A stretch of DNA of 64,000 bases. It comes from Geothrix oryzae. Lineage in GTDB: Bacteria; Acidobacteriota; Holophagae; Holophagales; Holophagaceae. Below, one piece after another: positions 24,222-31,871 of this stretch (its first letter is position 1; each line of letters starts with the position of its first letter). The notes beneath the pieces are model-generated. The model did no database searches and had not been told where the DNA came from. It saw nothing but the letters and a program-made list of their open reading frames with translations. The position numbers were made by a program, and so were the translations under genes. The DNA lies in contig NZ_AP027079.1 in the NCBI RefSeq assembly GCF_030295385.1, forward strand, positions 744,001 to 808,000. Direction: 5' to 3'.

Positions 24222-24716
24222 AACGGCCTGGCTGAAGGGATTCCCATCGATCGGACCATCCTTCGTACGACCTGCGGGCCGCGATCCGATGCGGTCCGTT
24301 TCGCCCGCTGCACAGGGCGACCTCGCCAGGACGCCAGCCGCTACTGCCTTTGAGGATGATCGAGATCATCCGGAAGGTTTAGATCGAGGCGCCCGATGGG
24401 TGGAAGCAGACTTTCCGTGTCCACCTGAAGAGCATCTAAACACGCGCCAATGCAGCATCTGCGGACTTCGTGCCACAGAGTCTTGACGCGTGCAAGTCTG
24501 CACTCCATGTTTACGACTCCCTTCCGGAGTGAATGCCCGGAAGCCCCATCCGGTGATCGTCACCGGCAGTACCAGGAGGGCCATTCCATCCCAGTGAGTG
24601 GCTGGCGCCCGCATGGCCCCGCACGGGTGGTGAAGACCTGTGTGCCTTTTCCCAGTCTGCCCATTTCCCGGCCCGCACGGGGCGGACGGGGGTGGCTCGC
24701 CTTACAGGAGAGACTC
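24222..24716 (+). other. 495-bp non-coding stretch upstream of the propeller/PKD gene
   Basis: No convincing gene is seen. Bases 24347-24377 form a long imperfect hairpin: CCTT/AAGG at the base and a perfect 7-bp upper stem, GGATGAT/ATCATCC. TTTAG follows, so it may terminate mfd. Just before it, 24310-24340 contains GCACAGGGC, ACC, GG and ACGC in an order that faintly resembles a c-di-GMP-I (GEMM) aptamer, but the GNRA loop is missing. A perfect dyad CCGGTGA/TCACCGG lies at 24550-24566. ACAGGAGAG before 24717 is the ribosome site of the next gene. Confidence 0.4.
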
Positions 24717-27281
24717 ATGACGCACCCATTCCTCCGCCGCTTCCTGAGCGTCGCCACCCTTGCGGGAGCAGCGCTGCTGCTGCCCGCCCTCCACTGCGGG
24801 AAAAGCGCCTCCCAAACGCAGGCGGCTTCTCCCAGCCAGCCGGGCTCGGGGGGAAGCACCGCGCCGTTCTCATTCTCCGTGGTGGCTTCGGGCCTGTCGA
24901 AGCCCACGGGCATCGCCTTGGCGGACAATCGATCACTGGTGGTCTCCCAGCAACCCGCGGCCCCCCTGGATGCCTCGCTCGCCAGGATCGACCTGGACAC
25001 CGGAAGCGTGGGCCTGATCGCCGGCGGGACCGCCGTCCGGTCTGGATTCGCAGCGAACCGCGCGGGAAGGCTCTACTGGGTGGACGCGCAGAAGGGCGCC
25101 CTCATGACCCAGAGCCGGGCCGCCGGGTCTCCCGCCGTCCTTCACGCGGGCGGCATGCTTCCGACCACGACCATCGCCGTGGATGCCGCGGACCGGGTGT
25201 ACCTCGCCGGTACGGCCGCGCAGGGCAGCGGCGGCGTGGCCGCCGTGCTGGTGAGGGGCGCCTCGCCCACGGCCATCCCCGATCCTTCAGGGCCGGACAA
25301 GACGGTCCTGGTGGCGGCGTCTTCCGGGGACCTCTACTGGACCAGCCGAGCCGCCGGGCTCATCTACCACCGGTCCCCGGACGGCAAGGGCAGCGTGCTC
25401 GTCACCGGACTGAAGTCGCCGCAAGGCCTCGCCCTCGGTCCAGCCGAGGATGTCCTGTATTTCACGGAAGTGCCCACGCCGGGCAAGGACGCCGCCGCGG
25501 GCGGAGCCAATACCGTGAGCGCCCTCGATCTTGCGACCCTTTCCCGGACGGTCATCCACCGGGGTGATCCTGAGCCCACGGGGGTCGCGGTGGCTTCCAA
25601 CGGCAGCGTGTACTGGACCAGCACCAGCCGGGGCCTCGTCCTGGCGGCGCGGCCCGCCATTCTTCCCGCCGCACCGGCCCAGTTCACGGCCACGCTCAGC
25701 GGGGCGGAGGAGGTTCCCCCCGTCACGACCCAGGCCTCCGGGAAGGCGGCCTTCAGCTTTGTGAGTGGAACCACCCTCTCCGATGACCAGGTGTCCACCG
25801 GCCCGGCCCTCAGCTACCGGGTGACGATCACCGGCATCTCCCGCGTGCGCAGGATCGAGATCCGCCAGGGCGCCAAAGGCGCCACGGGGCCGCTGGTGGC
25901 CGTCCTCCCCCGCGGCGACGACTTCGATGACGACGAGGACGAGCTCACGAGCGGGAGAGAGAGCGGAAGCGGGGGCGTGGGTGGCTTCGCCCTTGCCGGC
26001 CGGATCCGCCTCCGGAACCTCCAGGGGCCCTTCGCGGGCGACTGGGCGGGGTTCAGCGCCGCCCTCGCGGCCGGGAACCTCTACCTGAATGTCCCGACCC
26101 GCGCGTATCCCGCCGGCGAGATCCGGGGCCAGATCCTTCCCACGACCGCCCCTCCGGCCAATCACCCACCCACGGCCGTCATCACTTCGCCGGCCGCGGA
26201 TGCGACCATCCAGGCCGGGCAGTCGGTCACCTTCGCCGGGACGGCCACGGATCCTGATGGCGATGCCGTCTCGGTCCTCTGGGACTTCGGGGATGGCAGC
26301 ACTTCCCCCCTCCTCTCGCCGGGTAGCCACACCTATGCCATGGCCGGGACCTATACGGTCCGCCTGACCGCCACGGATGCCTACGGTCTCGCGGACCCCA
26401 ATCCGCCCACCCGCACCATCACCGTCCAGCCCTCCGCCGTGAACCTGCCGCCCTCCGCCACGATCACCTCGCCTTCCGCCAGCGTCAGCATCGTCGCAGG
26501 GCAGTCGGTCACCTTCACTGGCACCGCCTCGGATCCCAACGGAGACCCGGTCACGGTCCTCTGGGAGTTCGGAGACGGGGGCACCTCCACCCTGCTATCC
26601 CCCGGAGCCCATGTCTATGCTGCGGCCGGAACCTACACGGCGCGCCTGACGGCCACGGATTCCCACGGGTTGGCGGATCCGAATCCGCCCACCCGCACCA
26701 TCACCGTCACGGCCGCCCCGGTGAACCAGCCGCCCACGGCGACGATCACCGCTCCTGCGGCCAATGTCACCATCACCGCCGGCCAGTCGGTGACCTTCGC
26801 TGGCACGGCCTCCGACCCGGATGGCGATGCGGTCACCGTGCTCTGGACCTTCGGGGACGGGACGACTTCGACCGTGCTGGCTCCGGGGTCCCATACCTTT
26901 GCGGCCCCGGGGACCTACACGGTGCGCCTGACGGCCACGGACTCCCACGGGCTGGCAGATCCGAATCCGCCCATCCGCACCATCACCGTCTCGGCAGTCG
27001 CCGCCCCCACGCTCACCCAGATCCAGACCCAGATCTTCACGCCCCTCTGCGTGGGCTGCCATGACGCGGCGGGGGCGGCCGGCATGAACCTCACCGCGGG
27101 AAGCGCCTACGCCAACTTGGTGAATGTACCGGCCACCACGCTTCCGGGGCTCCGGGTCGTGCCGGGTGATCCGGCCTCCAGCGCCCTGGTCATCCAGCTG
27201 GCGAGCGGGCACCGGAATGTATCCGCGGCCAATCAGTCCCTCATTTCCGCCTGGATCACCGCAGGCGCGCTCAACAACTGA
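24717..27281 (+). CDS. Secreted multidomain protein: beta-propeller, CHRD, three PKD domains, heme-binding C-terminus
   Basis: This 854-residue protein is exported (hydrophobic segment at about 7-24, then LHCGKS, a poor lipobox). Residues about 35-320 show SMP-30/NHL-type propeller repeats (GLSKPTGIALADN, GLKSPQGLALG, EPTGVAVASNGSVYW). Residues about 323-475 match a CHRD domain (FTATLSGAEEVPP ... PAGEIRGQI). Three PKD domains with an exact 94-codon period follow (about 482-763). The C-terminus has a c-type heme site CVGCH (778-782) within a PSD1/planctomycete-cytochrome-like fold (FTPLCVGCHDAAGAAGMNL). It is probably a surface protein; a role in adhesion or electron transfer is inference. The ATG at 24717 has AGGAGAG in place; the longer upstream frame is rejected. 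Confidence 0.85.
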   Translation: MTHPFLRRFLSVATLAGAALLLPALHCGKSASQTQAASPSQPGSGGSTAPFSFSVVASGLSKPTGIALADNRSLVVSQQPAAPLDASLARIDLDTGSVGLIAGGTAVRSGFAANRAGRLYWVDAQKGALMTQSRAAGSPAVLHAGGMLPTTTIAVDAADRVYLAGTAAQGSGGVAAVLVRGASPTAIPDPSGPDKTVLVAASSGDLYWTSRAAGLIYHRSPDGKGSVLVTGLKSPQGLALGPAEDVLYFTEVPTPGKDAAAGGANTVSALDLATLSRTVIHRGDPEPTGVAVASNGSVYWTSTSRGLVLAARPAILPAAPAQFTATLSGAEEVPPVTTQASGKAAFSFVSGTTLSDDQVSTGPALSYRVTITGISRVRRIEIRQGAKGATGPLVAVLPRGDDFDDDEDELTSGRESGSGGVGGFALAGRIRLRNLQGPFAGDWAGFSAALAAGNLYLNVPTRAYPAGEIRGQILPTTAPPANHPPTAVITSPAADATIQAGQSVTFAGTATDPDGDAVSVLWDFGDGSTSPLLSPGSHTYAMAGTYTVRLTATDAYGLADPNPPTRTITVQPSAVNLPPSATITSPSASVSIVAGQSVTFTGTASDPNGDPVTVLWEFGDGGTSTLLSPGAHVYAAAGTYTARLTATDSHGLADPNPPTRTITVTAAPVNQPPTATITAPAANVTITAGQSVTFAGTASDPDGDAVTVLWTFGDGTTSTVLAPGSHTFAAPGTYTVRLTATDSHGLADPNPPIRTITVSAVAAPTLTQIQTQIFTPLCVGCHDAAGAAGMNLTAGSAYANLVNVPATTLPGLRVVPGDPASSALVIQLASGHRNVSAANQSLISAWITAGALNN
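26160..27005 (+). repeat. Three in-frame tandem PKD-domain repeats of 282 bp
   Basis: Units begin at 26160, 26442 and 26724. Each is 94 codons long and encodes a PKD domain with the shared core AGQSVTF.GTA.DP.GD.V.VLW.FGDG and a GTYT.RLTATD ending. The strict period and high similarity point to recent duplication or gene conversion within the gene. Confidence 0.85.
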
Positions 27282-27317
27282 ACCAACCCCCGGGCCTCCG
27301 GGCCAGGGGCGAACGAC

Positions 27318-27344
27318 GCGGGGGCGGTCCAGGGCCGCCCCCGC
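27318..27344 (+). terminator. GC-rich terminator-like hairpin after the PKD protein gene
   Basis: GCGGGGGCGG (27318-27327) pairs perfectly with CCGCCCCCGC (27335-27344) around 7 bases. It is followed by CTTCTGTCCT, a weak pyrimidine tract. It lies 37 bases after the stop codon. Stem strength argues for a terminator; the lack of a clean T-run lowers confidence. Confidence 0.55.
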
Positions 27345-27471
27345 CTTCTGTCCTGGCACCCCCGGCCGGACGAGGACGGCCAGCCGCCGGTCCGGATCCG
27401 CCATTCGCCGATCCCCCGGCCAGGGGCAGAATGGTCGGGCCTACCTTGAAGGGGTCCCGACAGGAGTGCCC

Positions 27472-28884
27472 ATGCTGTCCTATCTGATGTCCGAAGCCGC
27501 CGCCCTGGGGCGCGTGGTCCAGACGATCACCGCCTTCCTCCTGCTCACGGCCTTCGCCCCCCTGGTCCTGCACAGCGCGGAGGCGAAGGCGGAACCCCGC
27601 ATCGTCTCCCTCAAGGACTTCGAGACCGCCGAGGTGCGCAGCCAGGGCTTCACGCTGCCCCAGGCCATGAAGGTCCATGTCTATGCCAAGGGCGGGGGGC
27701 TCCGGCGCTTCGGCCGCACGCCCATGGACCAGCCGCTCTTCGCCTACGGCTGGATCCTGAACGCCGTCACCCGCGAGGTGGTGTGGCAGATGGACGGATC
27801 CAACACGAAGCGGGACTGGGAATACCGCGTGGCCGACCAGTACCTCGACCTGCCGAAGGGCAGCTACGAGGCCTACTTCGCCAATCACGGGTTCGGCCAA
27901 AGCCTGCTCTTCGCCCAGTGGAGCCGGAACATCGACCGCCGGGCCCTCCACCGGGAGGGGGCCGATCGGCCTCATGGTTTCCTGGCGGCCTTCGGGGCGG
28001 ACGATGCGAGCATGCTGCGGCACTGGCGGGAACAGGTGGGCAACTATGGTCTGGAGCTCTACCTGCCGGGCGGCGAGGCCGGGACGGTGGCGCTTTTCGA
28101 GGCGCCGCTGCGGTGGAAGAACATCGTGCTGGCGCTGCCTGCGACCTCAGACGGTAGCCACAGGACCCAGGCCTTCCACCTGAAGAAGGCGGTTGCGCTG
28201 CATGTCTATGCCGAAGGCGAGGGCAGCGGCCGGCGCATGCATGACTACGGCTGGATCACGGATGCCCGCACGCGCGCCCGGGTGTGGGAGATGAGCATGG
28301 ACAAGGCCCAGTTCGCCGGCGGGGCCCGCAAGAACCGCCGCCAGGTGGAGACCCTCCAGCTGCCGGCGGGCGACTACGAGGCGTCCTTCGTGACAGATGA
28401 TTCGCATTCCCCTGCGGACTGGAACGCCGCGCCTCCCTGCGATCCCGGCATGTATGGCCTGACGCTGTCGGTGCCGGCGGATGGGGACCTGGCGGCGGTG
28501 GCATTGACGGACCCGCTGACCTGGCCCGTGGTGGCCGAGCTGGTGCGCGTGGGCGACGGCCAGGACCGCAGCGCCACCTTCACCCTCCCCGCCGGCCGCT
28601 CCGTGAGGATCTACGCCATCGCGGAAGGCGACGGGGAGGACATGGCCGACGAGGCCTGGATCGAGGATGCCGCCGGCAAGCGTGCCTGGTTCATGGAGCG
28701 CAGCCGCACTCATCACGCCGGCGGCGCCACCAAGAACCGCCTGGCCGACGAGGTGGTCAGCCTGCCCAAAGGCACCTACACGCTGCGTTTCCGCACCGAT
28801 GACAGCCATGCCTACGGCCACTGGAACAGCGATGCGCCCTGGGATCCCGAGCACTACGGGGTGACGGTCTATGCCGGGAAGTGA
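27472..28884 (+). CDS. Secreted protein with three copies of an unrecognised domain
   Basis: This 470-residue protein has an N-terminal signal or anchor segment (about 18-38, with AKA before EPRI). Three related units follow at about 60-205, 235-335 and 369-468. Shared landmarks are an opening F-L-x-x-A/G...V-x-x-Y-A, then YGWI.DA.TR..VW.M, then L.LP.G.YE..F, and in units 2 and 3 TDDSH followed by W-N and DP..YG.T. Unit 1 lacks the DDSH part. I do not recognise the family; the pattern suggests a beta-sandwich. No enzyme motif is evident. Its stop overlaps the convergent gene's stop by 16 bases. Confidence 0.7.
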   Translation: MLSYLMSEAAALGRVVQTITAFLLLTAFAPLVLHSAEAKAEPRIVSLKDFETAEVRSQGFTLPQAMKVHVYAKGGGLRRFGRTPMDQPLFAYGWILNAVTREVVWQMDGSNTKRDWEYRVADQYLDLPKGSYEAYFANHGFGQSLLFAQWSRNIDRRALHREGADRPHGFLAAFGADDASMLRHWREQVGNYGLELYLPGGEAGTVALFEAPLRWKNIVLALPATSDGSHRTQAFHLKKAVALHVYAEGEGSGRRMHDYGWITDARTRARVWEMSMDKAQFAGGARKNRRQVETLQLPAGDYEASFVTDDSHSPADWNAAPPCDPGMYGLTLSVPADGDLAAVALTDPLTWPVVAELVRVGDGQDRSATFTLPAGRSVRIYAIAEGDGEDMADEAWIEDAAGKRAWFMERSRTHHAGGATKNRLADEVVSLPKGTYTLRFRTDDSHAYGHWNSDAPWDPEHYGVTVYAGK

Positions 28885-30557
28885 GCCAGCTCGTCGGGAG
28901 CTGCGAAGACTCCGGGGATCGGCCAGCCGCAGCTCCCGCAGCTGCCACCGTCCTTGAGGTCCAGGTCCACCACCCGATAGCCATCCCGTCGGATCACGGT
29001 TTCGCCGCAGCCGGGACAGAGGGTCATCGAACCCTCCGGGTCGCGCACATTCCCGGTGTAGACATACCTCAGGCCCGCTTCGCGGGCGAGGGTCCGGGCC
29101 CGGGCGAGGGTGGCCAGAGGCGTGGGGGGCAGCTCCCGCATCCGGTGGTCCGGATGGAAGGCGCTGAAGTGCAGGGGCACCTCCGCGCCGAGCTCGGAGA
29201 CGATCCAGGCTGAGAGCTGGCGGAGCTCATCGTCGGAATCGTTCAGGCCGGGGATGAGCAGGGTGGTGATTTCCGTCCACACCTTCGTTTCGTGCACCAG
29301 GAAGCGCAGCGTGTCGAGCACGGGGCCGAGGGTGCCGGCCGCGACGCGCCGGTAGAAGCCGTCGCTGAAGGCCTTCAGATCCACATTGGCCGCGTCCAGA
29401 TGGGTGAAGAAATCCCGCCGGGCCGCCGCCTTCAGATAACCCGCCGTCACGGCCACCGTGGCGATGCCTTCCGCATGGCAGGCTTCGGCCACCTCCGAAA
29501 CGAACTCCAGGGAGGTGGCCGGCTCGTTGTAGGTGAAGGCGACGCTGCGGCAGCCCATGCGGCGGGCGTCCCGGGCGACGGCTTCAGGTGTGGTCCGCTC
29601 TCGGAGAAGGCCCAGGTCGCGCGAGCCGGAGAGCTTCCAGTTCTGGCAGAAGCGGCAGGAGAGGTTGCAGCCCACCGTGCCGAAGGACAGCACCCGGGAG
29701 CCCGGGAGGAAGTGATGGAGCGGTTTCTTTTCAATGGGATCCACGCAGAAGCCGCTGGTCCAGCCGAAAGCCGCGAGGACCATGCGGCCGCCGCTCCGCT
29801 GCCGCACGGAGCACCGGCCGCGCTGTCCCTCCTGCAGGGCGCAACCATGGGGGCAGACATCGCAGCGAAGCCGGCCATCTCCGAGCCGATGCCAGTGACG
29901 GGCGGGGTAGGGGGATCCCGCAGCCTCGAGCCCCCGGTTGCGCGCCCGCGGGGGGTCGTCGTGCCAGGCCTCCGCGGTGAAAGTCCAGGCGCGGATGCCC
30001 GGTGACCAGAAGGCCGCGGGCCACCCCGCCTTGCGCTTGAGGGCCGAGAGATAGGCCCGGGGCTCTGGCAGCGTCGTCCAGACCTGGGGCAGGAAGAGCG
30101 CCCGGTCTCCGCGGTAGTCCAGGACGAGGCCATCCACGCCAGGCCGGAGCTGGCGCAGAAGATCCTCCTCATCCACGCAGGCGACGGGGCGCAGCGGGGA
30201 GAGCAGGGATACCTCCACGGACGCCCGGGACAGGTCCTCGTGCCCGAGTGGTCTGAAGCGGGTGTCCCGGAAAGCGGCGGCGCGGGCGTGGTCGATGAGG
30301 CCCGCCACGAGGGAGGCGTCCGGCACGGGGCTGCCCACGCAGCCGCGCAGCTTCCCGTCCACGGTGAGGGTCACGAAGGTGGCGCCCGGCCCGTCGAAGC
30401 CCTCGGGGAGGGCCCCCCCGGGCTCCTGATCATCCAGAGTGGCGGCGATGGCCGCGCGGGCCAACCGCGCCAGCTCGCCCCCATCCCGTTCAGGCCGCTC
30501 AGGGCCGATCGGTGCGGGTTTCATAGAAGGCGAAGGCGCCATAGCCGACGACCTCAT
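28869..30557 (-). CDS. amrS: AmmeMemoRadiSam protein A fused to the radical SAM enzyme
   Basis: This 562-residue fusion has an AMMECR1 (protein A) domain at about 25-205, with FVTLTVDGKLRGCVGS and the FLPQVW region. It is joined to a radical SAM enzyme of the AmmeMemoRadiSam system. The SAM cluster motif CNLSCRFCQNW lies near residues 297-307. It is preceded by a Cys-rich entry (CDVCPHGCALQEGQRGRCSVR) and followed by a C-terminal zinc-ribbon-like CPGCGE...CGSCGW. The strong GGAGG before the ATG at 30557 sets the start. That start lies 59 bases inside the upstream Memo gene, so the two are translationally coupled. The reaction of this conserved system is not settled to my knowledge. Confidence 0.92.
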   Translation of the reverse strand: MRSSAMAPSPSMKPAPIGPERPERDGGELARLARAAIAATLDDQEPGGALPEGFDGPGATFVTLTVDGKLRGCVGSPVPDASLVAGLIDHARAAAFRDTRFRPLGHEDLSRASVEVSLLSPLRPVACVDEEDLLRQLRPGVDGLVLDYRGDRALFLPQVWTTLPEPRAYLSALKRKAGWPAAFWSPGIRAWTFTAEAWHDDPPRARNRGLEAAGSPYPARHWHRLGDGRLRCDVCPHGCALQEGQRGRCSVRQRSGGRMVLAAFGWTSGFCVDPIEKKPLHHFLPGSRVLSFGTVGCNLSCRFCQNWKLSGSRDLGLLRERTTPEAVARDARRMGCRSVAFTYNEPATSLEFVSEVAEACHAEGIATVAVTAGYLKAAARRDFFTHLDAANVDLKAFSDGFYRRVAAGTLGPVLDTLRFLVHETKVWTEITTLLIPGLNDSDDELRQLSAWIVSELGAEVPLHFSAFHPDHRMRELPPTPLATLARARTLAREAGLRYVYTGNVRDPEGSMTLCPGCGETVIRRDGYRVVDLDLKDGGSCGSCGWPIPGVFAAPDELAHFPA

Positions 30558-31299
30558 CTTGGCCTCCTGCCGTGTCACCCGAGTTCCGGAGGTCGAGGAG
30601 CAGGGGATGCAGGTGCCTGCGCCGCGCCGCTTCGAGGAACCCAGCCACCGGGGCCGCTCCGCAGGCGCCCCCGGGGGGCAGGACCGTGTCCAGGCGGAGG
30701 ATCTGCCGGGCGGTCTCCGCGTCAATCCTGCGGCATTCGCGGTAGGACCGGTAGTGGGAGAGGTCGGAACTCACGACGATCACGGTCTCCGGCCCGCCCC
30801 AGAGGGCCCCCAGCACCTCGGCCACCTGGGCGGGGGAGGCCTGGCCCACGGCCAAGGGCACCAACTTGGCCTTCGGGGCCACCCGCTGGAGGAAGGGGAG
30901 ATGCACCTCCAGCGAATGTTCGGGCCGGTGGATGGCTTCGCTGCGGCGCACTTGCGGAATGCGCGCGAGGGCCTCCTGGTCGATCTCCACGATCCCAAGG
31001 GGGGTCTCGAAGGCCTCGGATTCGGGCAGGGCCAGCCCCTCAAAGGCCGCGTGGTGGCTGGGCCCCAGCACCACCACGCGCTCAAGGGTGCCGCCCTCCC
31101 GCATCAGCCGCGCATAGCCGCTGGCGGCCACGGGGCCCGAATAGACATAGCCGGCGTGGGGCACGATCAGGGCTTTCGGCATGGGATCGGCCGGCGGCAC
31201 CGTCACCGCCGCGAGAAGGCCGTCCACCTCCCCCCGCAGGCGATGCGGATCTCCCGGATAGAACCTGCCGGCGACGATGGCCGGACGAACCGTCAGCAT
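30499..31299 (-). CDS. amrB: AmmeMemoRadiSam system protein B (MEMO domain)
   Basis: This 266-residue protein is homologous to human MEMO1 and class III extradiol dioxygenases. Likely metal ligands sit in PHAGYVYSG (His), GPSHHAAF (His) and the region GGACGAAPV (Cys); SSDLSHY is also conserved. It is the partner of the A/radical-SAM fusion that begins inside its 3' end. AAGGGG precedes the ATG. An 86-base gap separates it from the thioesterase gene upstream on the same strand. Confidence 0.93.
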   Translation of the reverse strand: MLTVRPAIVAGRFYPGDPHRLRGEVDGLLAAVTVPPADPMPKALIVPHAGYVYSGPVAASGYARLMREGGTLERVVVLGPSHHAAFEGLALPESEAFETPLGIVEIDQEALARIPQVRRSEAIHRPEHSLEVHLPFLQRVAPKAKLVPLAVGQASPAQVAEVLGALWGGPETVIVVSSDLSHYRSYRECRRIDAETARQILRLDTVLPPGGACGAAPVAGFLEAARRRHLHPLLLDLRNSGDTAGGQDEVVGYGAFAFYETRTDRP

Positions 31300-31385
31300 G
31301 GCGACCCCTTCGTGGGGTAGGGCGCAGGGACACGATCGGTCCCGGCGGGCCCCGGCGCAAGCGCTGCCGGAGGATCCTGGTCAGA

Positions 31386-31871
31386 TCATGTCAGTGCCAG
31401 GGGCAGGGTGGCCTTCAGCGCCTGAAGCACCGGCTTTTCGTCGGCCACCACCTCGAAGGCGCTCCGGAACGCCTCCGGGATGGTCCGGGCCCGTCCCGTC
31501 TCGGCATCGACGAAGACCCAGAGGGTCCTGGCCTTGGCCAGGACCTTGCGGTCCCGGTCCCGCCAGAAGAGGCAGTGGCGGGGGGACTCCTGGGCCTCGA
31601 AACCGCCGATCCAGGTCAGCACGGTGATCGTCTCCCCGGCGAAGGCGGGCCGGAGGTAGTCGATGGCGTGGGAGCGGATCACCCAGCTCGTCCGGGTCTC
31701 CGCATACCTGGCCCGCGTCCAGCCCCGCGCATCCGAGTGGGCCGTGGCGATGTCCTGCATCCAGCGCAGGTATTCCAGGTTGTTGACATGGCCGTTCCCA
31801 TCGATGGCGGCCCCGGGCACGGCGAAGGCGTGGGCGAAGACGCCGGGCGGCAGGGGCGGCGGCGGGGTCAT
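31386..31871 (-). CDS. Acyl-CoA thioesterase (4HBT hotdog fold)
   Basis: This 161-residue protein has the hotdog-fold thioesterase signature IDGNGHVNNLEYLRWM near the N-terminus and the later phrases RSHAIDYLRPAFAGE and FWRDRDRKVLAKARTLWV, as in YbgC/FadM-type enzymes. It probably hydrolyses acyl-CoA or acyl-ACP thioesters in the cytoplasm. The ATG overlaps the upstream nucleotidase stop by four bases, so the pair is one operon. Confidence 0.85.
   Translation of the reverse strand: MTPPPPLPPGVFAHAFAVPGAAIDGNGHVNNLEYLRWMQDIATAHSDARGWTRARYAETRTSWVIRSHAIDYLRPAFAGETITVLTWIGGFEAQESPRHCLFWRDRDRKVLAKARTLWVFVDAETGRARTIPEAFRSAFEVVADEKPVLQALKATLPLALT

Follow-up and report, generated by a model that had tools for sequence, protein, structure and literature searches.

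Two components of the AmmeMemoRadiSam system, the AMMECR1-like A domain and the radical S-adenosylmethionine (SAM) enzyme rS, are encoded as one protein in a 64,000-nucleotide stretch of the Geothrix oryzae genome (contig NZ_AP027079.1, positions 744,001 to 808,000; hereafter the window). Their shared open reading frame (ORF) follows the gene for the third component, Memo (B), on the minus strand. It is nearly certain that the A and rS genes, which are separate in most other genomes, fused once in the Geothrix lineage. The fused unit is a lineage-specific architecture of an already known, unsolved system, and the fusion is useful as a tool but weaker mechanistic evidence than an earlier note on this stretch had taken it to be.

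Each part exceeds the curated cut-off of its NCBIfam family: A matches TIGR04335 (AmmeMemoSam_A) with 168.9 bits against a cut-off of 99, rS matches TIGR04337 (AmmeMemoSam_rS) with 518.9 bits against 220 and carries the CX3CX2C motif, and Memo matches TIGR04336 (AmmeMemoSam_B) with 251.4 bits against 26. Pfam agrees with all three assignments. With A, B and rS encoded together, the locus belongs to AmmeMemoRadiSam, as the earlier note had proposed, and A and rS do form one chain, a single 562-codon ORF that runs from one domain into the other without stop or frameshift. The window's own genome, a single contig of 3.27 Mb, holds one rS match at E <= 0.001.

Residue conservation was counted over the gathered rows (101 for rS, 84 for A and 82 for Memo). 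In rS, the three SAM-cluster cysteines (C297, C301 and C304) are present in 101/101 rows, those of the N-terminal motif in nearly all (C232 and C235 in 100/101, C239 and C249 in 101/101), and those of the C-terminal motif likewise (C514 and C517 in 99/99, C540 in 98/99, C543 in 97/98). The LRGCVG motif of A keeps G72 and G75 in 84/84 rows and C73 in 83/84, and Memo has H48, H128, D179, H182 and C213 in 82/82 and H82 in 81/82. The metal and cluster residues, described in the earlier note as intact, are thus both present here and near-invariant in their families. Memo H48, H82, D179 and H182 align with H49, H81, D189 and H192 of human MEMO1 (inferring a chain numbering offset of 3); the alignment stops before C213, which we take from its motif to be the counterpart of human C244. 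According to the accessible text of PMC11081632, the iron of human MEMO1 is bound via H49, H81 and C244, with H192 and D189 near it but not ligands. The disease variant G177D of human AMMECR1 falls in the corresponding LRGCIG motif (PMC5502304, accessible text).

The fused gene among Geothrix genomes

Ten non-redundant fused ORFs were collected, the window's own and nine from relatives (65-90% identical), one of them from the isolate Geothrix rubra Red803 (L034, on the same contig as L020); their linkers differ by whole codons. The earlier note had been wary of a stop or frameshift between the two domains, and the frame is open in the independent assemblies of all nine relatives. Many rS matches had flagged internal stops, for which recoding was considered; it is rejected for the six loci whose ends were inspected (L023, L024 and L027-L030), where the stop is the terminal one, directly after the last conserved part of the chain.

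Across 47 genomes of the genus, many of them incomplete, the unit is fused in 11 (the window's own, G001, G005, G012, G021, G024, G034, G250, G1125, G1127 and G1129), split in one, broken in one and encoded by separate genes in 10; none was found in the remaining 24. G1127 and G1129 were called fused from the match span and open frame alone, a flagged stop in G1129 being taken as terminal. In quick trees the fused members form one clade for rS (support of 97 in the Shimodaira-Hasegawa-like approximate likelihood ratio test, SH-aLRT; 12 rows), for A (99, 11 rows) and for Memo (100, 12 rows), with the separate-gene units of other Geothrix genomes outside it; G011 is absent from the A tree, and G250, found to be fused later, is in none of the trees. 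The clade also takes in G014 (L021/L037), in which a frameshift in the linker splits A from rS unless this is an assembly error, and G011 (L026), in which a deletion joins A to rS alongside an in-frame stop, which points to either a defective copy or faulty assembly of this 72% complete genome. None of the 47 genomes had both a fused and a near-kind separate unit, an observation of little weight as the separate units are one group. Besides its fused unit, G1127 has another rS, a distant one accompanied by an A match (C127:5412-7903).

Coordinates place the unit next to one and the same 5'-nucleotidase gene in 10 of the 11 fused genomes, as well as in the split and broken ones; in the eleventh, G1129, unit and nucleotidase are on different contigs. 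Given that 11 of 47 genomes are fused, that 10 of these share the same neighbour and that the sampled fused members form one clade in three trees, the fusion is no sequencing artefact. Unit and nucleotidase never share a contig in the 10 separate-gene genomes, and the nucleotidase stretches of the seven that were fetched contain no such unit. The nucleotidase was rejected as a partner: a copy at least 81% identical is found in 45 of the 47 genomes, with or without the unit, and only a distant paralogue matched in the other two, G010 and G1126. A thioesterase gene between the nucleotidase and the unit was not found beside the fused units L167 and L168, and is present at unit-less sites.

One close relative, G002, lacks exactly the two-gene unit (Table 1; compared stretch L149). 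Its nucleotidase is 99% identical to that of the window and its flanks are 92-93% identical in DNA, with no A or rS match elsewhere in the genome. A tree of the 5'-nucleotidase from 26 loci joins G002 to the genome of the window (support 85), within a starred clade that includes the fused G1125. The fused label requires eight changes on this tree, of which starred branches force at least five, and its scatter is like that of shuffled labels. Taken with the shared place of the unit, this is most simply read as repeated loss of an ancestral fused unit; a single gene makes a weak species tree.

Fusions in other lineages

The earlier note suggested a survey of how often, and in which lineages, A and rS are fused. 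Among 105 non-redundant loci (within L001-L110), which are best matches rather than a random sample, 10 have A and rS in one ORF, and every one of these comes from the window's genus or Holophagaceae. Memo and A share an ORF in 34, always in the order Memo then A, and Memo and rS in none. A and Memo are present but unfused at 36 loci, and at 25 one of them lies outside the examined stretch.

A profile of the fused protein was then run over genomes drawn from six phyla, the best few candidates per genome being scored. It matched at least 157 of 247 genomes in Acidobacteriota (E 1e-20, best first), 106 of 296 in Actinomycetota, the phylum of Tetrasphaera (1e-60), 95 of 299 in Pseudomonadota, the phylum of Thiobacillus (1e-80), 133 of 243 in the archaeal phylum of L104 (1e-80), 67 of 188 in Myxococcota, the phylum of Minicystis (1e-110), and 41 of 199 in Planctomycetota, the phylum of L051 (1e-110). 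Within these draws, A followed by rS in an unbroken frame was found in Geothrix only (three genomes in the Acidobacteriota draw). Several apparent fusions were rejected because a stop separates the genes: G601, G660, G692, G609, G772, G624, G785 and the partial G793 in Pseudomonadota, G517 and G399 in Actinomycetota, and G1191 in the phylum of Minicystis. Plasmid matches from Ideonella and Segatella are also separate genes, and in G311 (L146) Memo shares a frame with part of rS, the rest of rS being in another frame.

At 13 of 129 loci, and likewise in G1191, a stop interrupts a frame that A and rS share, so one change could fuse them; the fusion could then be neutral, a stop lost between adjacent genes and the result kept by chance. 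The split member G014 fits this account, but the frame has stayed open across 10 sequences despite a linker that varies in length and sequence. We regard neutrality as a serious possibility, somewhat short of an even chance, and one compatible with the joint mechanism considered below.

A second type of fusion was found in 3 of the 41 positive Planctomycetota genomes (G1386, G1365 and G1498), where a single frame, 1078-1112 codons from stop to stop, runs through rS, A, about 200 unmatched residues (X) and Memo, with rS, A and Memo all exceeding their NCBIfam cut-offs. These come from 16 further long open frames around rS that were fetched, with X judged by Pfam; the other 13 contain rS with neither A nor Memo in frame. 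The unmatched segment had no match among solved structures or plasmids. G1386 and G1365 are 97% identical and G1386 and G1498 are 77% identical, so these amount to at most two distinct sequences. Just before A, an ATG preceded by AAAGGT is conserved, while most of the preceding linker has diverged, which makes a second product starting at A possible. Given that its order is the reverse of the Geothrix one, an independent origin can be argued for the Planctomycetota fusion.

Three other matches were noted. In Gulosibacter macacae, three A-domain matches lie upstream of rS (L061:5317-8525); a plasmid of Ideonella dechloratans carries amrB and amrS near arsenic-resistance genes (L175:3053-9485); and one phage match covers 28% of the query in an unannotated record.

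A candidate joint mechanism and its alternatives

We infer, with a probability of roughly 0.4, a mechanism in which the three parts assemble into one complex and A is its middle piece. In this scheme rS, resembling the activase of pyruvate formate-lyase (PFL), would cleave SAM and take a hydrogen from a substrate, which might be a protein, a peptide or a small molecule. A would present this substrate via its conserved LRGCxG stretch. The reaction would then be finished, probably without O2, at the Memo metal site, which comprises two His and, judging by the motif, a Cys. The fusion would tie A to rS by a flexible linker, adding efficiency rather than a new reaction.

The middle position of A is suggested by the fusion counts given above (Memo-A 34, A-rS 10 and Memo-rS 0 of 105) and by the three rS-A-X-Memo frames. 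One complex is favoured both by fusion and gene order, which put A in the middle, and by the co-occurrence of A with rS. Among 60 relatives, all 37 genomes with A over its cut-off also have rS over its cut-off, and A is present in 37 of the 40 that have rS; the loss of the unit as a block in G002 agrees with this. Searches for A and rS in two controls, Thermotoga maritima and Methanocaldococcus jannaschii, found A above its cut-off and a match to rS. Both organisms are strict anaerobes, so an O2-dependent step is unlikely to be general, although O2 independence has a slender basis here.

The same occurrence in strict anaerobes speaks against Memo being an O2-dependent, LigB-type ring-opening dioxygenase to which rS would supply an aromatic ring, a reading we consider very improbable. 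The invariant Memo C213 would also tell against it if, as its motif suggests, it is the equivalent of the human cysteine ligand. In human MEMO1 the iron coordination and fold resemble those of extradiol dioxygenases, but the third ligand, C244, is a Glu in the dioxygenases, and the human protein showed no dioxygenase activity with standard substrates (all from the accessible text of PMC11081632).

The model of the fused protein has a mean predicted local distance difference test score (pLDDT) of 91.5 and a predicted template modelling score (pTM) of 0.75. With Foldseek also run, its A part matches PH0010 (1vaj; Z 23.4, root-mean-square deviation 1.8, 180 aligned), and its rS part matches the PFL-activating enzyme (3cb8; Z 23.8, root-mean-square deviation 2.2, 225 aligned). 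The latter match, along with weak profile matches to activase families, could mean that rS is itself an activase, the target of the unit being a glycyl radical enzyme encoded elsewhere in the genome. All activase models remain far below their cut-offs, however (the best, TIGR02493, at 54.2 against 231.75 bits), and the rS family conserves extra N- and C-terminal Cys motifs, leaving this explanation quite unlikely.

Lower fold similarity was found to QueE, NifB, RlmN and TYW1 (Z 15-17). On the basis of genome context, Burroughs et al. 2019 reportedly proposed that the unit modifies RNA, a nucleotide base or an isoprenoid. Both these fold matches and the C-terminal CxxC..CxxC knuckle of rS agree with such a role, as does the linkage of archaeal AMMECR1 to arCOG04290 and to PIN- and Zn ribbon domains (PMC6393860, accessible text); the Z scores are clearly below that of the PFL activase. 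The neighbour clusters are few and unannotated, so context speaks neither for nor against this alternative, which we hold to be possible but doubtful.

Several observations weigh against a joint complex with A in its middle. The control Haloferax volcanii has an A match and no rS match, 24 of the 47 genus genomes are without a detected unit, and A is not directly upstream of rS at 26 of 129 loci. The frameshift in G014 suggests that the covalent tie between A and rS is dispensable. Among 616 ORFs from 80 loci, predicted with a rough gene caller and clustered without family-search annotation, no neighbour family was recurrent enough to indicate a pathway, the widest cluster covering seven loci. 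The predicted A-rS arrangement is only moderately confident (pTM 0.75), and the natural Memo-A fusion of Thiobacillus (L044) gave a model with pLDDT 95.1 and pTM 0.69, close to the value expected for two unconnected domains by an estimate made without a control run, so that neither model settles the domain contacts. A distance correlation over 73 loci gave partial r of 0.52 for A-rS, 0.46 for Memo-rS and 0.28 for A-Memo; with shared ancestry uncontrolled it was counted on neither side, and read literally it gives A no advantage over rS for the middle position.

Two mechanistic claims of the earlier note have to be qualified accordingly. That A handles the substrate or product of rS does not follow from this fusion alone, since A is fused to Memo at 34 and to rS at 10 of the 105 loci. 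A 1:1 stoichiometry of A and rS is implied by the single chain, but seems not to be essential if the split in G014 is genuine. It is also conceivable, and in our judgement unlikely, that the fused protein represents the self-sufficient half of an ancient O2-independent complex, with A holding the substrate, rS activating it and an iron-bearing Memo completing the reaction, of which human MEMO1 and AMMECR1 would be the remnant after loss of the radical step.

The locus and its comparison with known systems

Features of the unit are collected in Table 1. The earlier note gave a 59-base overlap of the Memo and fusion genes; the coordinates stand, and the figure holds if ATG 30557, which has AGGAGG 5 nt upstream, is the start. 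With ATG 30542, common to all 10 aligned fused sequences including the window's own, the overlap is 44 bases; ATG 30524 is a further candidate start. The conservation of ATG 30542 may only reflect its location within a conserved Tyr-Gly of Memo in the other frame. A promoter and terminator scan found nothing above shuffles. A gene at 27124-28884, convergent with the unit, has no Pfam match, and its 27466-28884 part is found in 19 of the 20 Geothrix stretches fetched. Beyond it, the gene at 24450-27281 has CHRD and three PKD stretches (Pfam) and, by eye, a C-terminal haem-like CVGCH motif.

Table 1. Features of the fused unit (window coordinates) and the Planctomycetota loci (locus coordinates).
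Feature	Position	Strand	Remarks
AMMECR1-radical SAM fusion gene	28869..30557	-	562 codons + stop from ATG 30557; ORF list, NCBIfam, Pfam
Memo (AmmeMemoSam_B) gene	30499..31299	-	266 aa; overlaps fusion gene
A domain, residues 29-198 (TIGR04335), LRGCVG motif	29964..30473	-	NCBIfam, Pfam, fold match 1vaj
Linker between A and rS family matches	29904..29963	-	20 residues in the window; variable in both length and sequence across relatives
Radical SAM (rS) domain, residues 219-554 (TIGR04337)	28896..29903	-	NCBIfam, fold match 3cb8
rS domain motifs: N-terminal 4-Cys, CX3CX2C, C-terminal CxxC..CxxC	28896..29903	-	
Stretch missing from close relative G002	28885..31410		about 37 bases instead
rS-A-X-Memo loci	L177:2823-6056, L178:2901-6134, L179:854-4189		

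In the literature searched, which leaves most subscription papers outside, no reaction is assigned to AmmeMemoRadiSam, in line with the earlier note, and no A-rS fusion is described. In the accessible text of PMC9062700, PMC7701253 and PMC12724379 the name appears as a mere gene label in a figure legend or table, and that of PMC7159879 cites Burroughs et al. 2019 for Memo-Ammecr1 systems. Two parts of the system have human counterparts, AMMECR1 and MEMO1, which are linked with disease and cancer and have no known reaction. The natural A-rS fusion offers a single construct for assays, and metabolomics could exploit the clean presence or absence of the unit among close Geothrix relatives. The fusion patterns suggest one complex centred on A.

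Compared with known systems, the locus is closest to AmmeMemoRadiSam (amrA, amrB, amrS), with three contiguous parts over their cut-offs, the order Memo-A-rS and the same residues; A and rS are one chain here, whereas at other loci A is mostly separate or fused to Memo. Memo-AMMECR1 fusions involve the same families and a two-domain tie that includes A, but join A to Memo and leave rS as a separate ORF. The Planctomycetota rS-A-X-Memo frames likewise encode A and rS without an intervening stop, and each of the three known parts exceeds its cut-off; unlike the Geothrix protein, they begin with rS, have the unmatched residues before Memo and possibly yield two products. The modelled rS appears to share the radical SAM core fold of the PFL-activating enzyme, but falls below that family's cut-off and has extra Cys motifs. 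With human MEMO1 and AMMECR1 the locus shares homologous domains, the Memo metal residues as far as they were aligned, and the LRGCxG motif; in the accessible text of the papers cited, no radical SAM partner is named with them.

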